NCBI GenBank assembly: GCA_021734745.1
Contig: JAIPIK010000008.1
Span: 1-47,474 of the forward strand
Source of the DNA: Candidatus Altimarinota bacterium
Lineage (GTDB): Bacteria > Patescibacteriota > Minisyncoccia > Phycocordibacterales > UBA5272
Direction: 5' to 3'
Length of the DNA stretch: 47,474 nt
In this document: positions 7,374-47,265 of the stretch, piece by piece
Numbering within the stretch: position 1 is the stretch's first letter
Layout of the letters: each line of letters starts with the position of its first letter
Program-made: the position numbers and the translations under genes
Notes under the pieces: generated by a model
Database searches by the model: none
Told to the model about the DNA's origin: nothing
What the model saw: the letters and a program-made list of their open reading frames with translations, nothing else

Positions 7374-7492
7374 ATAATAAGCGGAGCTTATTATAGTGAC
7401 TCTTCAGTAAGACAACCGCTTGTCTTACGACAGATTCGAATAGGGGTCGCGAGGTCTATATTTCGAGTTTATGAGAAATTGACCTTGTGACC
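7374..7492 (+). other. tRNA-Thr 3'-linked inverted structured element
   Basis: Directly after the CCA: a 9-bp hairpin with a GGA loop (7374-7394); a 9-bp hairpin GTAAGACAA-CCGC-TTGTCTTAC (7407-7428); then CAGATTCGAA (7431-7440), the exact complement of the tRNA T-arm strand TTCGAATCTG (7351-7360). A long stem follows: GGTCGCGAGGTC (7445-7456) pairs over 12 bp, with G-U pairs, to GACCTTGTGACC (7481-7492), and an inner helix ATTTC/GAAAT encloses the loop GAGTTTATGA. The same order recurs after tRNA-Arg (46520-46639). The T-arm complement could also pair with the tRNA 3' fragment that follows at 7492. Function is unknown. Confidence 0.7.
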
Positions 7493-7520
7493 GAGTCTGA
7501 GAAGCGGCTCCAATAATAAG
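7492..7520 (+). pseudogene. 3' fragment of a tRNA-Thr gene
   Basis: This copies the end of tRNA-Thr including CCA and the flank AATAATAAG, with one difference (GAGTCTGAG for GAATCTGAG). No 5' part is attached. Together with the 5' fragment at 7156-7252 it brackets the intact tRNA. Confidence 0.75.
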
Positions 7521-10759: not shown

Positions 10760-13168
10760 ATGAAATTTTCTAAATCATGGCTACAAGATTATATCGTTGA
10801 AAAACTTCCTGAAGACGGGGTTATTGCTGATACCTTGAACAAGAAGGCTTTTGAAGTTGAGGAAATTTTAAAATTAGACAATGATACTGTTTTTGATATT
10901 AAAGTTCTTCCTAATAGAGCGCATGATGCCCTTGGTCATCACGGAATGGCATATGAACTTTGCTCATGTTTTGGGTATACATTTAATAAGAGTATGGATA
11001 AAAAAACCATTGATTTTATTGATAAGCATATTACCTCACCAAGCGTGGCTATTGATGACGAGTCGTCATGTACAAGATTCATGAGTATTAGAATTGATGG
11101 TGTAGTAGTTGGGGAAAGTCCAGAGTGGTTAAAGAAAAGAATGGAATCCATAGGTCAACGTAGTATTAACAATATAGTGGATGCTACTAATTATGTTCAA
11201 TTCGCACTCAATAAACCGATGCATGCATACGATGTCAGAAGTGTGAAAGGTATACTTCGTGCACGTTTTGCAAAAAGTGGAGAGACATTGAAAACTTTAG
11301 ATGAAAAAGATTTAACATTAGATGAAAAGACACTTGTTATTGCTGATGATGAAAAGGTGCTCGGTCTTGCAGGAATAAAAGGTGGTAAATTTAGTGGGAT
11401 TCAATCTGACACAACTAGTATTTTATTAGAAAGTGCTAACTTCGAGCCAACCTTAATTCGTAAAACATCTCAGAAGTATGGACTACACACCGATGCATCT
11501 AAGAGATTTGAAAACGGTATTGCTAACTCACTTGTTATAGTTGGTTTGTATGCAACAGCTAATCTTATAAAAGATATATGTAAAGATGTACAAGCAAGTG
11601 AACCAACTGATATATATCCTAATAAAGATGTTTCTTATCATGTTGGAATATCTTGTCGTGAACTTAATGATATTTTAGGTACTAAATATACAGCAGAAGA
11701 TATCTCGAAAACTTTAAAGCAAATGTCTCTTCCTTTTGAGATTATTATTCCAGAAAAATACATAAAAGAAACTTACGAAACACTAGTTGGAGCTGTATAT
11801 AAGAATCCTTCAAGCATGAGGCGAGATGCACCAAGAGCCTTTAGTTGTTCGTCACTTATTAGTTATCTTTATAAAGGAATATGGATGCCAAGTATTTCAA
11901 TTGATAAATATGTTTTTTCAAAAAAAATAACAAAAGAGGAACTTTCTTTCGGTGACCTTATTTTTACAAATTCTGGTGAAGGGAAAATTAGACACGAATC
12001 AGAAGAATTCTTGCGTGGTACAAAAGTAAAAGATGGCATTGATCATGTAGGAATGTATTGTGGTAATAATGAAGTTATACATTCGACGAAAGTTCATGGT
12101 GTTGTAACCATAGAATCATTAGATAATTTTGCAAAAGGAAGGGCTGTTGTGGGTTATGGAAGAGTAACAGATTATTTAAACGAAGAAAGATTCGTTGTTC
12201 GTGTTCCATCAGTACGATTAGATATTCGTATTAAAGAAAATCTAGCAGAAGAAATTGGTCGTATCTTAGGATATGAAAAACTATCACCTACTCTCCCACA
12301 GCTTAACCGCGTTGGCATTGTTCACAAGAGAATGTTTTATGAAAATAAAATTAGAGAGATATTATTTGAGCACGGCTTTAGTGAAGTGATGACATATACA
12401 TTTGGAAACAAAGGCGAAGTAGAGTTAGTAAAAGGCCTCGCAGATGATAAAGAAAAGTTGCGTACAAATCTTGGAGATGGATTAGTTCAGTCTATTGCAC
12501 TGAATATATACAATGCTCCAATTTTGGGTCAAAAAACTATTAAAATTTTTGAAATAGGAAATGTTTTTGGAAATGGTTCAGAAGTAAGACATCTTTCACT
12601 TGCAATTGATGATGGTACTAAGAAAAGCAGTTTCACTGAAGAAGTGGATATGATTCTCGCAGAAATTAAAAGAACTTTAAGACTAAACGCGACGGGGGAT
12701 AGTGTCGCGTCGCCCGACCAAACAAAGCTTGGTTTAGGGATTAAAGAGATTGAATACAAAACAATTTCAGTGAAGCCTTACGTAATAGAGTTGGATTTTG
12801 ATGCACTTATTAGTGAGTTACCTGAGTTAGATATTTATGAGGCACCAGTATTTTCAAATTTACCACTAGTTAATTACAAATCAGTCTCATCTTATCCATT
12901 TATTACTCGTGATATTGCTATGTGGGTACCTGATACTATCACATGGGAGGATATCAATTCTCTTTGTGTTGAAGTACAGAATCCTATCGTTACTCGTATT
13001 GATCTTTTTGATACGTTTTCAAAGGAAACAGAAGGTATAAAGAAAACATCTTACGCTTTCCGTTTAGTATTCCAAAGTTATGATAAGACATTAACTGATG
13101 AAGAAGTTAACAAAATGATGGAACCATATTACGAAGTATTTAAAGGTAAAGGATACGAAATACGATAA
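10760..13168 (+). CDS. pheT: Phenylalanine-tRNA ligase beta subunit with an inserted NlpC/P60 domain
   Basis: Beta subunit of PheRS, 802 residues. The EMAP-II-like tRNA-binding domain is missing: the N-terminal helix runs straight into the B1 part. B3/B4, the editing core (ATNYVQFALNKPMHAYD), is at about 105-255. B5 starts at about 293 (CRELNDILGTKYTAEDI) and resumes at ERFVVRVPSVRLDI near 476. In between, at about 330-475, is an extra domain with NlpC/P60 signatures: FSCSSLISYLYKG (Cys363), IDHVGMYCGNNEVIHS (His429 and His441, 12 apart as in Spr). The C-terminal anticodon-binding-like domain begins near SYPFITRDIAMW. A 55-bp palindromic insert encodes residues 642-659. Peptidase activity is inferred, not shown. 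Confidence 0.93.
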   Translation: MKFSKSWLQDYIVEKLPEDGVIADTLNKKAFEVEEILKLDNDTVFDIKVLPNRAHDALGHHGMAYELCSCFGYTFNKSMDKKTIDFIDKHITSPSVAIDDESSCTRFMSIRIDGVVVGESPEWLKKRMESIGQRSINNIVDATNYVQFALNKPMHAYDVRSVKGILRARFAKSGETLKTLDEKDLTLDEKTLVIADDEKVLGLAGIKGGKFSGIQSDTTSILLESANFEPTLIRKTSQKYGLHTDASKRFENGIANSLVIVGLYATANLIKDICKDVQASEPTDIYPNKDVSYHVGISCRELNDILGTKYTAEDISKTLKQMSLPFEIIIPEKYIKETYETLVGAVYKNPSSMRRDAPRAFSCSSLISYLYKGIWMPSISIDKYVFSKKITKEELSFGDLIFTNSGEGKIRHESEEFLRGTKVKDGIDHVGMYCGNNEVIHSTKVHGVVTIESLDNFAKGRAVVGYGRVTDYLNEERFVVRVPSVRLDIRIKENLAEEIGRILGYEKLSPTLPQLNRVGIVHKRMFYENKIREILFEHGFSEVMTYTFGNKGEVELVKGLADDKEKLRTNLGDGLVQSIALNIYNAPILGQKTIKIFEIGNVFGNGSEVRHLSLAIDDGTKKSSFTEEVDMILAEIKRTLRLNATGDSVASPDQTKLGLGIKEIEYKTISVKPYVIELDFDALISELPELDIYEAPVFSNLPLVNYKSVSSYPFITRDIAMWVPDTITWEDINSLCVEVQNPIVTRIDLFDTFSKETEGIKKTSYAFRLVFQSYDKTLTDEEVNKMMEPYYEVFKGKGYEIR
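12683..12737 (+). repeat. 55-bp in-frame palindromic element, pheT copy
   Basis: Outer arms CTAAA/TTTAG enclose a hairpin ACGCGAC/GTCGCGT with loop GGGGGATAGT, the block CGCCCG, and a second hairpin ACCAA/TTGGT. It encodes residues including ASPDQTKLG. The same plan and length occur in murD at 18272-18326 with different but still paired stem bases. It is far more GC-rich than the surrounding gene. Confidence 0.8.
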
Positions 13169-16049: not shown

Positions 16050-17309
16050 ATGTCTTTAAAGGATTACAAGTATGTGCATTGCATAGGAATAGGGGGTATA
16101 GGATTATCAGCTATTGCCAGATATTGTAATGCCAATGGTGCAAAAGTAACTGGGTCAGATAGCGGAGCAACACGTATTACTGATGATTTGCAGAGTGAGG
16201 GTATAATTGTATACATAGGTCACAATGCAACTAATCTTGCACAAGAAACTAATCTTCTCATTTATAGTATTGCTGTTAAAGATAATAATCCTGAATTAAA
16301 ATTAGCAAAGGAAAGAGGAATTATGTGCATGACATATCCTGAAGCATTAGGATTATTAACTAAGGAGTACACAACAATAGCAGTATGTGGCACTCATGGA
16401 AAAACAACTACAACGGGAATGGTGACTTCTATGTTAAAAGGTTGTGGAATTAATCCTACAGTTATTATTGGAAGTTTATTGTCCGAAGGTGGAACTAATT
16501 TTATACAAGGAGACAGTGAATATCTGGTTGTTGAAGCTTGTGAGTATAAGCGTTCATTTCTTAATCTTTATCCAAAACATATAGTTGTTACAAATATTGA
16601 TGAAGATCACCTAGACTATTACAAAGACTTAGAGGATATTAATAGTGCATTTCAATCATTTGCTGATAAATTAGAAGATGGTGGGTTACTTATAACCCAT
16701 AACGATGTTTCTCTTAATACATTAGGTAAAAAAGTAAATGCAGATGTTGTAGATATTAATCAAATAGAGCTTTCAGTATTAGGCGAACATAATAAAAGAA
16801 ATGCACAATTAGTTCTTGCTTTATCTAGTGAACTGGGATTTTCAGATGAAAAGGCTCGCGCTGGACTGAATGCATTTACTGGTACATGGCGTCGTCTTGA
16901 GTATAAGGGAACACAAAAAGGTGCAATCATGTATGATGACTACGGACATCATCCAAGAGAAATAATGGCCACACTAGAAGCACTTCGTGAAAAATACACA
17001 TCAGGAAAATTCAAATTGATAGTTGTTTTTCAACCACATTTATTTTCACGAACAAAATTATTATTAGATGATTTTTCAAAAGCATTCACTCTTGCTGATA
17101 AGATTTGTGTTCTACCGATTTATGCAGCTCGCGAAAAAGATGATGGAAGTATTTCATCTCATGATTTAGTTGAAAAGACTGATAATGCTATTTATATGGA
17201 AAGTTTTGATGAAGTAAAAAAATACATTGATAAAAATTGTCATTCAGGAAGTGTAGTGCTAACTATTGGTGCAGGAGACGTTTACCTTATTCATAATCTA
17301 TTTGTATAA
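16050..17309 (+). CDS. murC: UDP-N-acetylmuramate-L-alanine ligase
   Basis: 419 residues; cytoplasmic ATP-dependent ligase that adds the first amino acid of the peptidoglycan stem peptide to UDP-MurNAc. The N-terminal Rossmann motif GIGGIGLSAIA is followed by the ATP loop VCGTHGKTTTTGM, the Mur ligase residues EACEYKRSF and TNIDEDHLDYY, and the C-terminal YDDYGHHPREI with QPHLFSRT, all diagnostic for MurC. It is slightly shorter than E. coli MurC (491). murD follows after 4 bp. Confidence 0.95.
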   Translation: MSLKDYKYVHCIGIGGIGLSAIARYCNANGAKVTGSDSGATRITDDLQSEGIIVYIGHNATNLAQETNLLIYSIAVKDNNPELKLAKERGIMCMTYPEALGLLTKEYTTIAVCGTHGKTTTTGMVTSMLKGCGINPTVIIGSLLSEGGTNFIQGDSEYLVVEACEYKRSFLNLYPKHIVVTNIDEDHLDYYKDLEDINSAFQSFADKLEDGGLLITHNDVSLNTLGKKVNADVVDINQIELSVLGEHNKRNAQLVLALSSELGFSDEKARAGLNAFTGTWRRLEYKGTQKGAIMYDDYGHHPREIMATLEALREKYTSGKFKLIVVFQPHLFSRTKLLLDDFSKAFTLADKICVLPIYAAREKDDGSISSHDLVEKTDNAIYMESFDEVKKYIDKNCHSGSVVLTIGAGDVYLIHNLFV

Positions 17310-17313
17310 TTTT

Positions 17314-18714
17314 ATGATTAAAGAACTCTATTTATCATATTTTGAGAATAAGAAAGTAACTGTAATGGGATTAGGGCTTCTTGGTCGCGGTATAGGGGAT
17401 ACAAAATTTTTAGCAGAAAATGGTGCGGATATAATTGTAACCGACAAAAAAACAAAAGAACAATTAATGTCTTCCTTAGAATCTCTAAAAAATAACATAG
17501 AGGAACCCTATGTAAATATAAAATATATATTAGGTGAACATAGGTTAGAAGATTTTGAAAATAGAGATTTTATTTTAAAAGCCGCTGGAGTACCGTTCGA
17601 TAGTGAATATATAGAGCACGCTTGTTCAAATAAAATACCTGTATATATGTCAGCAGCATTAGTATGTGATATTGTCATGAAAGAATTACCTGATGTTGTA
17701 ATAATCGGAGTGACTGGAACAAGAGGAAAGAGTACTACAACAGAAATGATTGCTCATGTATTGCGAGAAAACGGCAGTAGAGTCCATCTTGGTGGAAATA
17801 TTCGCGGTGTTGCTAATCTTCCATTATTAGATGAAATTGAAGATGGAGATTTTCTGGTACTAGAATTAGACTCATGGCAGTTACAGGGATTCGGTGATAT
17901 GAAAATCAGCCCACATATTGCAGTCTTCACTAGTTTTATGGATGACCATATGAATTATTATAAAAACGATAAAGAATTATATTTTAATGACAAAGCAAAT
18001 ATTTATCGCAATCAACACGCTGGTGACGTATTGGTCGCAAGTGCCCAAGCAAGTAGTGAGATTATTATGCGAGGGGAGAGAGTCGCGATTCTTGTACCAG
18101 AACAACAACATTTTGATATGAAATTAATTGGTGAGCATAATCAAGTCGCGGGTGGTCTCGCATATGAGGTTGCTTCACAGTGTGGATTAGATGATGAAAG
18201 TATTCGCAAATCACTAGCAACATTTTCTGCAGTACATGGGCGTCTTGAAGATATGGGATTATTCCAAAAGGCTAAAACCACCATGGGTAGAGATGTTGGT
18301 TCGCCCGACTCAAAAAGTGAGTTTAGGGGTGTAAGAGTATTCAATGATAATAATGCTACAACCGGTGATGCGACCAACATAGCATTAGAATCTGTAAACA
18401 ACACTTTTAATAAAAAACCTATTCTAATAATCGGTGGAACAGACAAAGGTTTACCAATAGATGAATTAGAAAAATGTTTACAGAAAAAAACAAAAGCAGT
18501 TATATATTTATCAGGAACTGGAACAGACAGAATTTCTCTTAATAAGGAATATAAATATGACAAGCTTTCAGACTGTATTTCGAAAGCTTTTGAATTATCG
18601 GAAGAAGGGGATATTATTCTTTTCTCACCAGCTTTTGCATCATTTTCTAAGTATTTTAATAATGAATATGAAAGGGGTGACGAATTCGTGAAAGAAGTGC
18701 AAAAATATGCCTAA
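17314..18714 (+). CDS. murD: UDP-N-acetylmuramoylalanine-D-glutamate ligase
   Basis: 466 residues from the ATG at 17314, 4 bp after the murC stop; an upstream in-frame codon would overlap murC. It adds D-Glu to UDP-MurNAc-L-Ala. Motifs: VMGLGLLGRG, ATP loop GVTGTRGKSTTTEM, ELDSWQLQG, FMDDHMNYY, and NDNNATTGDA, the MurD-specific region. Between GRLEDMGLFQ and GVRVFNDNN, where most MurD proteins have only a few residues, this one has about 18 extra residues encoded by a palindromic DNA element. They fall in a surface loop next to the substrate-contact segment, so activity is probably preserved. Confidence 0.93.
   Translation: MIKELYLSYFENKKVTVMGLGLLGRGIGDTKFLAENGADIIVTDKKTKEQLMSSLESLKNNIEEPYVNIKYILGEHRLEDFENRDFILKAAGVPFDSEYIEHACSNKIPVYMSAALVCDIVMKELPDVVIIGVTGTRGKSTTTEMIAHVLRENGSRVHLGGNIRGVANLPLLDEIEDGDFLVLELDSWQLQGFGDMKISPHIAVFTSFMDDHMNYYKNDKELYFNDKANIYRNQHAGDVLVASAQASSEIIMRGERVAILVPEQQHFDMKLIGEHNQVAGGLAYEVASQCGLDDESIRKSLATFSAVHGRLEDMGLFQKAKTTMGRDVGSPDSKSEFRGVRVFNDNNATTGDATNIALESVNNTFNKKPILIIGGTDKGLPIDELEKCLQKKTKAVIYLSGTGTDRISLNKEYKYDKLSDCISKAFELSEEGDIILFSPAFASFSKYFNNEYERGDEFVKEVQKYA
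18272..18326 (+). repeat. 55-bp in-frame palindromic element, murD copy
   Basis: It has the same plan and length as the pheT copy: outer arms CTAAA/TTTAG, first hairpin AACCA/TGGTT with a loop containing GGGTAG, the block CGCCCG, second hairpin ACTCA/TGAGT. The second stem differs from the pheT copy (ACCAA/TTGGT) by paired changes on both sides. The core TCGCCCGAC is read in the same frame in both genes as Ser-Pro-Asp. Confidence 0.8.
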
Positions 18715-29684: not shown

Positions 29685-32600
29685 ATGGAAGAAAATCAAG
29701 AAAAAAAGGAAGATGTTCTAAATAGCATCTGGGATCATTTTAAAAAAGAAGAAGGAGTTATTTTGTCGTTGTTTGCTTTGATGATTGTATTTATGATGGG
29801 TAATAAACTTATAGATATTTATGCTGCGGACCCAGTTCCAGAATTAGTGAAGGTGATAAACCCACAACCAAGAGGTGGTGGCGGTAGTGATTTTATAGAA
29901 GTTGGTGGTATTACTTATTTTGTTGGTGGCAATGAAACATATGGTGAAGAATTATGGAGAACAGATGGCACCGCGAATGGTACAGTAATGGTTAAAGATA
30001 TAAGGGTAGGGTACAGAAGTTCACAGGTTTCAAACTTAACTGATGTGAATGGGGTATTATTTTTTACAGCAGATGATGGAATAAATGGTTCTGAACTATG
30101 GAAATCAGATGGTACAGAAGTAGGTACAGTGATGTTATCAAACAGACTAGATAGTAACAGTTTTAATTTTAGCTCTGCAGTTGTTAATGGTGTTCTGTAT
30201 TTCAGCACAGATGACACTTCTACTGGAGATGAGCTTTGGAGATCAGATGGAACAGTAGATGGCACACATATTTTAAAAGATATTAATCCTGGAGTTGCAG
30301 GTTCTGCGGCAAATTTTCCATTTGTAATTAATAATACTTTATACTTTTTCGTAAATACTGATGGTACAAATTATAATGCACTCTACACTTCAGATGGAAC
30401 CGAAATTGGAACAACTATAGTTGTGTCTGATATTGGTGTGGGTAGTTATGATAAAATTGTTATTAATAATATTCTTTATTACAAAGGGTATTATTCTGGT
30501 TTTGGCACAGAGCTTTGGAAAACTGATGGTACTGCTTCAGGTACAGAAATGGTGAAAGATATAAGTATTGGAAACAGTGGTTCACTTGATTCAAATATCG
30601 GTAGATTAATTGACGTTAATGGCACATTATTTTTTACTGCTGATGATGGAATAAATGGTCTTGAGCTATGGAAATCAGACGGTACAGCTTCTGGTACTGA
30701 AATGATTGTAGATCTTACCCCTGGTGCTGGTTTTAGTTACATTCAAAATGGAGTTGTTTTAGGTGATTCATTATATTTTGCTTTTGACGATGCAATAAAT
30801 GGATATGAGTTATGGAAATCAGACGGCACTGCAAGTGGTACAGTTATTGTAAAAGATATTAATCCTGGAGTTGCAGGTTCCATAGTAGAGAACCCTTTAG
30901 TTCTTAATGGTGTATTATATTTTATTGCTAACGATGGAATAAACGGAAATGAGCTTTGGAAATCAGATGGAACAGAAGGGGGGACTATTATGGTACAAGA
31001 TATAAATATCGGAGATACGGGGTGCAGTGGTTGTTTTTATCAGGCAGGTAATTATTTATATTATCCATTTAATGATGGAGTTCATGGAATAGAGACATGG
31101 AGAACAGATGGAACATCAAATGGTTGGTCATTTATTAAAGACATAGACGAGTCTTTTTTCTCAAACTCCTCACCACGTTACTTAAAAGTATTTAATAATA
31201 ATTTTTATTTTACAGCAAACGATGGAACAAATGGTAGCGAATTATGGGTATCTGATGGTACAGAAGGTGGCACTCAGATGCTAAAGAATATAAATGCTGG
31301 AGGTGATTCTATTTCTGGAGATCCTAATTTTTTAATTTCTAATAATATATTATATTTTATAGCAGATGATGGAGTTAGTGGTACGGAGCTTTGGAAAACA
31401 GATGGCACAGAATCAGGTACAATTTTGGTAAAAGATATTACATCTGGTGCTAATGGCTATGTTGAACAAGATTCATTAATCGATTTTAATAATAATGTAT
31501 ATTTTAATTCTGGTGATGATGGTACATATGGTTATGAACTTTGGAAATCAGATGGCACAGAAGTGGGTACGGTAATGGTTAAAGATATTAATCCTATCGG
31601 TAGTTCAGGGCCGTCTAATTTTGCTGTGTATAATAATGTTTTATATTTTTCCGCATCTGATGGTGTAAATGGTACTGAACTCTGGAAATCAGATGGTACA
31701 GCCTCTGGTACAGAAATGATTAAAGATATAAACTTAAGTGATAGTTCATCCCCTGATAATTTAATTGATATAAATGGCACATTATATTTTTCTGCTGATA
31801 ATGGTATAAATGGTACTGAATTATGGAAATCAGACGGGTCAGCATCCGGCACTGAAATGGTAAAAGACATTAATGGTTCTTACGGTTCTAATCCTCAGTA
31901 TTTTATTAATATTGATGGAGTTCTTTTCTTTGTAGCAAATAATGATGTAAATGGTGATGAATTATGGAAGTCAGATGGTACAGAAATCGGAACGGTTATG
32001 GTAAAAGATATAAATCCTGGTGGTGGTGGTGCAAATATTAGTGATTGGAGACATTCGCGAATGGTTAATTTAAATGGTAATTTATTATTTAATGCAGATG
32101 ATGAGGTGAATGGTAAAGAACTTTGGAAATCAGATGGCACTGAAGTGGGTACGGTTATGGTAAAAGATATAAATCCAGGCTATTTTAGTTCTTGGCCAGA
32201 AGAGTTTAGAGTTATTAATGGCGTTTTATATTTTAATGCGGATACAGAGCAATATGGTGAAGAATTATGGAAAACCGATGGTACAGAAGTTGGTACTATT
32301 ATGATAACTGACCTTGCTGTAGGTGGAGAAGATTCTGAACCAGAGGATTTAATTAATTTTAATGGTGATTTATACTACACTGCTGATGATTATATAAGTG
32401 GTCAAGGTATTTGGAAACTTAGTCTAGGTGCTGTTACCCCAACTACATATACTTTATCTTACTCGGCAAATGATAACGGCACTATATCAGGTTCCTCAAC
32501 TCAAGTAATAACAAGCGGTGGAAATGGTACAGAGATAAGTGCAGTACCAGATGAAGGATACATGTTCGTATCTTGGAGTGATAGTTCGACATCAAGTACA

Positions 32601-46519: not shown

Positions 46520-46655
46520 CAAAAATAAGCGAAGCATTTTTGTGCACTTGGAGCACGACAACTGCTTGTCGTGCATCAGGAGTCGGATAGGGGTCGTGAG
46601 GTTTATATTTTGAGTTTACGAAAAATAAACCTTGTGACCGAAAATGTACTCGTGT
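46520..46655 (+). other. tRNA-Arg 3'-linked inverted structured element
   Basis: ATTTTTGTGC (46536-46545) complements the tRNA end GCACAAAAAT (46517-46526), and ACTTGG continues against CCGAGG with one mismatch. Next is the hairpin GCACGACAA-CTGC-TTGTCGTGC (46553-46574), then CAGGAGTCGGA (46577-46587), complementary to the tRNA T-arm strand TCCGATTCCTG (46500-46510) with one G-U pair. GGTCGTGAGGTTTAT (46592-46606) pairs over 15 bp, with three G-U pairs, to ATAAACCTTGTGACC (46625-46639), around the loop GAGTTTACGA. The layout matches the element after tRNA-Thr. Confidence 0.75.
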
Positions 46656-47137: not shown

Positions 47138-47210
47138 GCTGGGATAGCTCAGTTGGTAGAGCATTTGCCTGAAGAGCAAAGGGTCCCCAGTTCGAGCCTG
47201 GGTCCCAGCA
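47138..47210 (+). tRNA. tRNA-Phe (anticodon GAA)
   Basis: 73 nt. Acceptor GCTGGGA/TCCCAGC, D-arm GCTC...GAGC, anticodon arm TTTGC-CTGAAGA-GCAAA (anticodon GAA), T-arm CCCAG/CTGGG with loop TTCGAGC, discriminator A; CCA is not encoded. Its 3' end is the first part of a perfect 64-nt palindrome. The charging enzyme is encoded by pheS and pheT at 9995-13168. Confidence 0.95.
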
Positions 47211-47265
47211 CATAATACAAAAAGCAACATCTTAAGATGTTGCTTTTTGTATTATGTGCTGGGAC
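47202..47265 (+). repeat. Perfect 64-nt palindrome joining tRNA-Phe to the next RNA
   Basis: The 32 nt at 47202-47233 are exactly complementary to 47234-47265, with no loop. The left arm holds GTCCCAGCA, the end of tRNA-Phe; the right arm holds TGCTGGGAC, the beginning of the downstream structured RNA. The middle (AAAAAGCAACATCTT and its complement) would also serve as a terminator in part. Confidence 0.9.

Follow-up and report, generated by a model that had tools for sequence, protein, structure and literature searches.

A short GG-flanked palindromic element, probably mobile, within conserved protein and RNA genes of Paceibacteria

Selfish DNA lying within essential protein genes is best known as a peculiarity of Rickettsia and Wolbachia. 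The palindromic elements of these bacteria (RPEs in Rickettsia) are short, stand in frame in conserved genes, occur also in RNA genes including tmRNA, and have no known mobiliser (PMC2229807). RPE-4-type inserts are found in pheT, in the gene for DNA polymerase III alpha and in a tRNA-modification gene, and orthologous sites can carry different RPE types (PMC3767692). Intragenic REPs have been described in uvrB/uvrA, tRNA synthetases and tRNA-modification genes (PMC3733652). The GC clusters (GC42) and double-hairpin elements of fungal mitochondria are palindromic units of approximately 40 nt which use a 2-nt target (AG), are mobile and merge with one another, without any proven transposase (PMC4478555). 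As for IS607, its overlap dinucleotide is GG (PMC4058570).

The element described here has the family consensus GG-CTAAA-(stem 1)-TCGCCCGA-(C stem 2 G)-TTTAG-GG and measures about 44-93 bp. Like RPEs, it forms in-frame palindromic inserts in conserved genes and lies in RNA genes including tmRNA; however, RPEs are described as families of 100-150 bp with sequences of their own, whereas here the stems vary freely and the arms, the junction and the GG flanks are fixed. With REPs (GTAG and CGTC super-families, with RAYT) it shares a hairpin set beside a short invariant unpaired motif, and similar intragenic host genes, RPEs and intragenic REPs likewise striking pheT, uvrB and tRNA-modification genes. 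Nevertheless, it bears no GTAG or CGTC tag (its constant parts being CTAAA, TCGCCCGA and TTTAG), comprises two hairpins per unit, duplicates GG and is unlinked to Y1 genes. GC42 has conserved stems and variable loops, whereas the present element has variable stems with a fixed junction and fixed arms, is bacterial and occurs within coding sequence. The GG crossover dinucleotide recalls IS607, but the element has neither genes nor long ends, nor any association with serine recombinases. By analogy, it would work like RPEs, intragenic REPs and mitochondrial GC clusters, and no common descent is claimed. It stands apart from these known kinds in that its junction and ends are fixed while its stems are interchangeable, that GG is duplicated, that it is present at RNA-gene 5' ends and that it is confined to one bacterial group; the papers searched contained no earlier description of such an element in Patescibacteria.

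Two copies are present on the forward strand of the window, i.e. the whole stretch of 47,474 nucleotides analysed here. The original prediction placed 55-bp modules in frame in pheT and murD, which was confirmed, their boundaries being refined to 12681-12739 and 18270-18328 when the flanking dinucleotides are included. The first copy (flanks GA ... GG; R1 match of 52.9 bits, E 8.3e-10 in its own genome) lies inside pheT (phenylalanine--tRNA ligase beta, 10760-13168; TIGR00472, 411.5 bits, above cut-off). Its 5' outer arm CTAAA (12683-12687) pairs with the 3' outer arm TTTAG (12733-12737), and between them stand hairpin 1 (12688-12709, CGCGAC/GTCGCG with the 10-nt loop GGGGGATAGT), the junction TCGCCCGA (12710-12717) and hairpin 2 (12718-12732, CCAA/TTGG with a 7-nt loop), both helices being supported by covariation. 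The second copy (flanks GG ... GG; R1 match of 53.8 bits, E 5.2e-10 in its own genome) lies inside murD (17266-18714; TIGR01087, 251.1 bits, above cut-off) and shows the same succession: CTAAA (18272-18276), hairpin 1 (18277-18300, ACCA-C-CAT/ATG-T-TGGT with one mismatch and an 8-nt loop, as read from sequence and fold), TCGCCCGA (18301-18308), hairpin 2 (18309-18321, CTCA/TGAG with a 5-nt loop) and TTTAG (18322-18326). Taken alone this pair is weak evidence, since neither copy folds significantly better than its shuffles when considered singly (z -1.4 and -1.1 for pheT and murD, respectively). The genome holds four copies, the other two being degraded: one is antisense at the end of a small gene reading like rpsR, and one is located outside long reading frames. 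The string TCGCCCGA occurs five times in the 960-kb genome of the window, the three occurrences besides pheT and murD being unrelated. Evidence from the whole family makes it certain that the two modules belong to a genuine element family.

The PheT protein of this genome (10760-13168) also contains an NlpC/P60 domain (aa 358-412) between its B3/4 and B5 domains; several congeners align end to end over this region, but for G002, G004, G005 and G008 the alignment is confined to its two flanks, and the domain appears to be missing. Elsewhere in the window, a perfect 32-bp palindrome (47202-47265) overlaps the end of a tRNA gene, a 62-bp direct repeat with 85% identity (7433-7494 and 46580-46641) is found approximately 60 bp past a tRNA gene at each of its two positions, and a single long reading frame holds thirteen imperfect repeats of about 144 nt (29892-32316), an arrangement reminiscent of surface repeat proteins.

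Alignments of 18 pheT and 16 murD sequences, including those of the window's genome, revealed the insert in this genome only: it is absent from all 17 other pheT and all 15 other murD sequences, the outcome anticipated for an inserted module. Close congeners are constant in length at the pheT site, and the net insertion is 57 nt, i.e. the core of 55 plus 2 (one GG); examples in typA and iscS follow the same rule of core plus 2, as judged by residue count. In tandem arrays, neighbouring units overlap by exactly GG, and the corresponding junction TTTAGGGCTAAA was retrieved 21 times (versus 0-3 for control strings). GG is found on the 5' side of 180 and on the 3' side of 182 of the 191 distinct copies collected. 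The insertion lengths and the tandem arrays sharing one GG thus indicate insertion at GG, with GG left on both sides. In rsmA, two genomes share an occupied site, beside a CC(GG) step, but their copies point in opposite directions.

Within open frames, 76 of 78 copies keep the frame (length 2 mod 3), whereas copies outside open frames are distributed 40:36:37 among lengths 0, 1 and 2 mod 3. Copies are read in either of the two stop-free sense frames, 39 in one and 20 in the other, and also on the antisense strand; the third sense frame would read TAA. The sense strand is favoured in open frames, with 59 copies versus 16 antisense (expected 43.5:31.5, p = 2e-4). A conserved peptide was rejected on account of this use of two sense frames and of the antisense strand. 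Accordingly, the Ser-Pro-Asp core pointed out in the original prediction does exist in both pheT and murD, but the peptide is incidental.

The constant parts of the family are near invariant, CTAAA being exact in 178, TCGCCCGA in 172 and TTTAG in 170 of the 191 copies, although these figures are somewhat inflated as copies with more than one change per constant part were excluded from the set. In 12 genomes the left-half pattern gave 68 matches versus 0 for a reversed control. Both stems vary at every pair save the first pair of stem 2. Covariation reached 0.694, whereas shuffles gave 0.136 and slid structures did not exceed 0.114, and 98.8% of pair cells are paired (70% in shuffles), so that the change of stems with pairing kept, proposed from two copies, holds family-wide. 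Loops are mostly 3 nt long, with GAA the commonest; the GGG reported in the loop of hairpin 1 is missing from most of them, and the pseudoknot supposed to join it to CCC is unsupported. The centre (TCG-CC-CGA) and the tandem junction (TTTAG-GG-CTAAA) each form an inverted repeat around a dinucleotide (CC and GG, respectively), and the 5-bp CTAAA/TTTAG ends, together with the duplicated GG, provide the terminal inverted repeats and the target-site duplication of a MITE. Selection on an RNA helix should lead to a preference for G-U pairs. Among 1305 anchored stem positions, 1259 (96.5%) are Watson-Crick, 17 are G-T, 17 are A-C and 12 are others; this equality of G-T and A-C argues for a DNA palindrome instead of an RNA helix, and the RNA-level structure implied at the outset is not borne out.

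As expected from the original prediction, a covariance model (built from 40 copies) recovered more copies in the window's own genome and in its relatives, with matches in 73 of the 397 genomes of the order. After fuller scoring, the richest genomes display 25, 20 and 15 matches, a few of which are the same copy on the opposite strand. Among approximately 85 000 species genomes of the GTDB genome collection, a strict exact pattern was detected in 77 stretches. All informatively named matches are affiliated to Paceibacteria/Parcubacteria (Nomura-, Taylor-, Zambryski-, Harrison-, Kaiser- and Wolfe-bacteria, among others), the remainder being labelled only 'bacterium' or 'Patescibacteria'; as far as found, the family is thus restricted to Paceibacteria. 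The exact pattern was not found in viral contigs, and a phage origin was rejected on this ground. With a loose pattern applied to 197 relatives, the right half of the matches was a hairpin of different sequence each time. Arms differ among most copies within one genome, G036 and G303 being genomes with similar copies. Related genes can also carry quite different stems at the same site, as observed in uvrB, tsaD, the metG C-terminal domain, leuS, argS and miaA. Such copies are either old insertions whose hairpins were rewritten while remaining paired, or repeated hits. The uvrB site is common to three families and shows the variant arm TATAG in all three, which favours, for uvrB, an old insertion with rewritten hairpins.

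Among the host genes identified with NCBIfam, pheS is occupied at four positions in several genomes and murD at four positions in four genomes; others include pheT and murE; argS, leuS, ileS, the metG C-terminal domain, mnmA, miaA, tsaD, dusB, fmt and def; and typA, efp, prfB, rnr, rsmA, rsmI, uvrB, polA, topA, dnaG, pcrA, recR, smc and secA. Judged without a background rate, this set looks enriched for tRNA-related and conserved genes. RNA genes are entered as well: the element abuts tRNA and tmRNA 5' ends, and is also found inside inserts of 23S rRNA genes. Among 111 copies outside open frames, 22 stand in sense at a tRNA gene 5' end, and in 16 cases the flanking GG marks the exact start of the tRNA. 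A tmRNA is present at 13 element-bearing loci, its 5' end meeting the element where coordinates were compared. In all, about a third of the non-coding copies abut tRNA or tmRNA 5' ends. These starts are a tiny share of the approximately 13 300 GG/CC sites available outside genes per 800 kb, which points to targeting or strong retention.

Copies in insert-bearing 23S rRNA regions were noted at L205:685-745, L230:1543-1600 and L214:1501-1560, L230 also matching a group I intron. A group I intron lies within a 16S rRNA gene at L042:1625-2143, with an element copy on the same contig, and a match to the LOOT RNA family (L299:1378-1504) is located just beside another copy.

Several explanations in terms of RNA were considered. 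The element could be a structured RNA, i.e. a processing or regulatory signal or a small ribozyme acting in tRNA and tmRNA leaders next to the RNase P cut and merely tolerated in mRNAs. Its exact placement at tRNA and tmRNA 5' ends, the sense bias in genes and the invariant junction within a three-way-junction layout would all be accounted for. However, the stems show no excess of G-T over A-C (17:17), about one-fifth of the open-frame copies are antisense, and the distribution is patchy (73/397). Moreover, no Rfam model matched the element in the window, and the three copies in L104 were without a match even at E <= 10; we regard this reading as quite improbable. The same 5' ends and sense strand could reflect retrotransposition, i.e. 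RNA-mediated copying into tRNA, tmRNA and mRNA sequences, for which we see only a slim chance: of 22 genomes searched, no more than 11 yielded a reverse transcriptase, G045 with its 25 matches has none, and the RNA-wobble signature is lacking. Short hairpin inserts in conserved genes also evoke an intron or a translational-bypass (byp) element, removed or skipped at expression, yet a removed insert would need neither the frame kept by 76 of 78 copies nor a stop-free read frame, which leaves this possibility barely conceivable.

Two known transposase types were also weighed as mobilisers. A REP-like sequence could be moved by a Y1 transposase (HuH, IS200/RAYT-type) acting on single-stranded DNA hairpins, since REPs, too, combine a hairpin with a short unpaired motif that is conserved (PMC3733652). 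Y1 genes are indeed found in 64 of 73 element genomes versus 183 of 324 others (p = 2e-7), but this association may reflect general mobile-DNA load. The surroundings of 37 Y1 loci, mostly from element-bearing genomes, contained no element; G349 (12 matches) and G405 have no Y1, and the REP tags are missing, so that we hold this origin to be improbable. The GG duplication and the inverted repeats around GG and CC would instead suit a passenger of an IS607-type serine transposase, in which a circular intermediate formed by crossover at GG would yield tandem arrays. This seems highly unlikely to us. Resolvase domains show no association with element genomes (56/73 versus 225/324, p = 0.26, IS607 not being separated from large serine integrases), the rich genomes G349, G405, G065, G061 and G035 have none, no element was seen at eight serine-recombinase loci, and no long form with these ends was found. 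The Y1 and serine-recombinase associations are uncorrected for phylogeny. Serine recombinase, Y1 transposase and reverse transcriptase were all rejected as required partners, each being missing from some rich genomes. A search for an autonomous parent with the same ends found none, the left halves in 12 rich genomes belonging to short elements. By inspection only, an integron attC was rejected because its core motifs do not fit, as was a TIGR array, the element units holding palindromes, not spacers, without the box C/D pattern (PMC12045711).

The probable explanation is therefore a very short, non-autonomous, non-coding and mobile palindromic DNA element which targets GG, is comparable to the RPEs of Rickettsia and is mobilised in trans by an unidentified enzyme. 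The further copies, the absence of the insert from orthologues and the pairing kept by changing stems support the likeness to Rickettsia and Wolbachia repeats initially put forward. The mobile unit would be the core CTAAA-hairpin 1-TCGCCCGA-hairpin 2-TTTAG plus one GG, inserted at a GG dinucleotide so that GG remains on both sides. In genes, as the frame statistics show, only frame-keeping insertions survive, and the element is thus translated as a loop of roughly 15-25 residues, whose presence in the mature protein is an inference. Watson-Crick-only pairing, mostly 3-nt loops and the conserved junction and ends suggest that it is as DNA that the hairpins matter; the mobilising enzyme probably recognises them either in folded single strands or in cruciforms. 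Arms at one site may change completely and yet stay paired, presumably via hairpin-templated copying in replication or transposition, and the concentration at tRNA and tmRNA 5' ends would imply targeting or strong retention there.

Several observations nonetheless stand against a mobile element of this kind. No transposition was seen and no enzyme was identified; arms mostly differ within a genome, unlike in ordinary MITE bursts; the uvrB sites with the same TATAG arm across families could reflect long retention instead of mobility; and a plain GG target explains neither the excess at tRNA and tmRNA 5' ends nor the sense bias. A bolder proposal, which we make only tentatively and consider rather unlikely, is a new class of mobile DNA. 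Its sequence would be inherited at the junction and ends alone, whereas hairpin-templated copying would rewrite the arms, and a GG-specific mechanism matching no known transposase family would direct it to the 5' ends of RNAs that RNase P processes (tRNA, tmRNA).

In any case, an independent-looking system now appears across Paceibacteria in aminoacyl-tRNA synthetases, Mur ligases, tRNA-modification and repair genes, and at tRNA and tmRNA 5' ends. With many copies in many species and site-wise presence or absence, the origin of protein inserts, the evolution of hairpins and the choice of targets become testable, and these inserts call for masking when Paceibacteria genomes are annotated or their proteins modelled. 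The gene classes hit suggest that palindromes have a common route of entry or survival there, and in the very small bacteria of Paceibacteria (Parcubacteria) essential genes have been entered without being broken.
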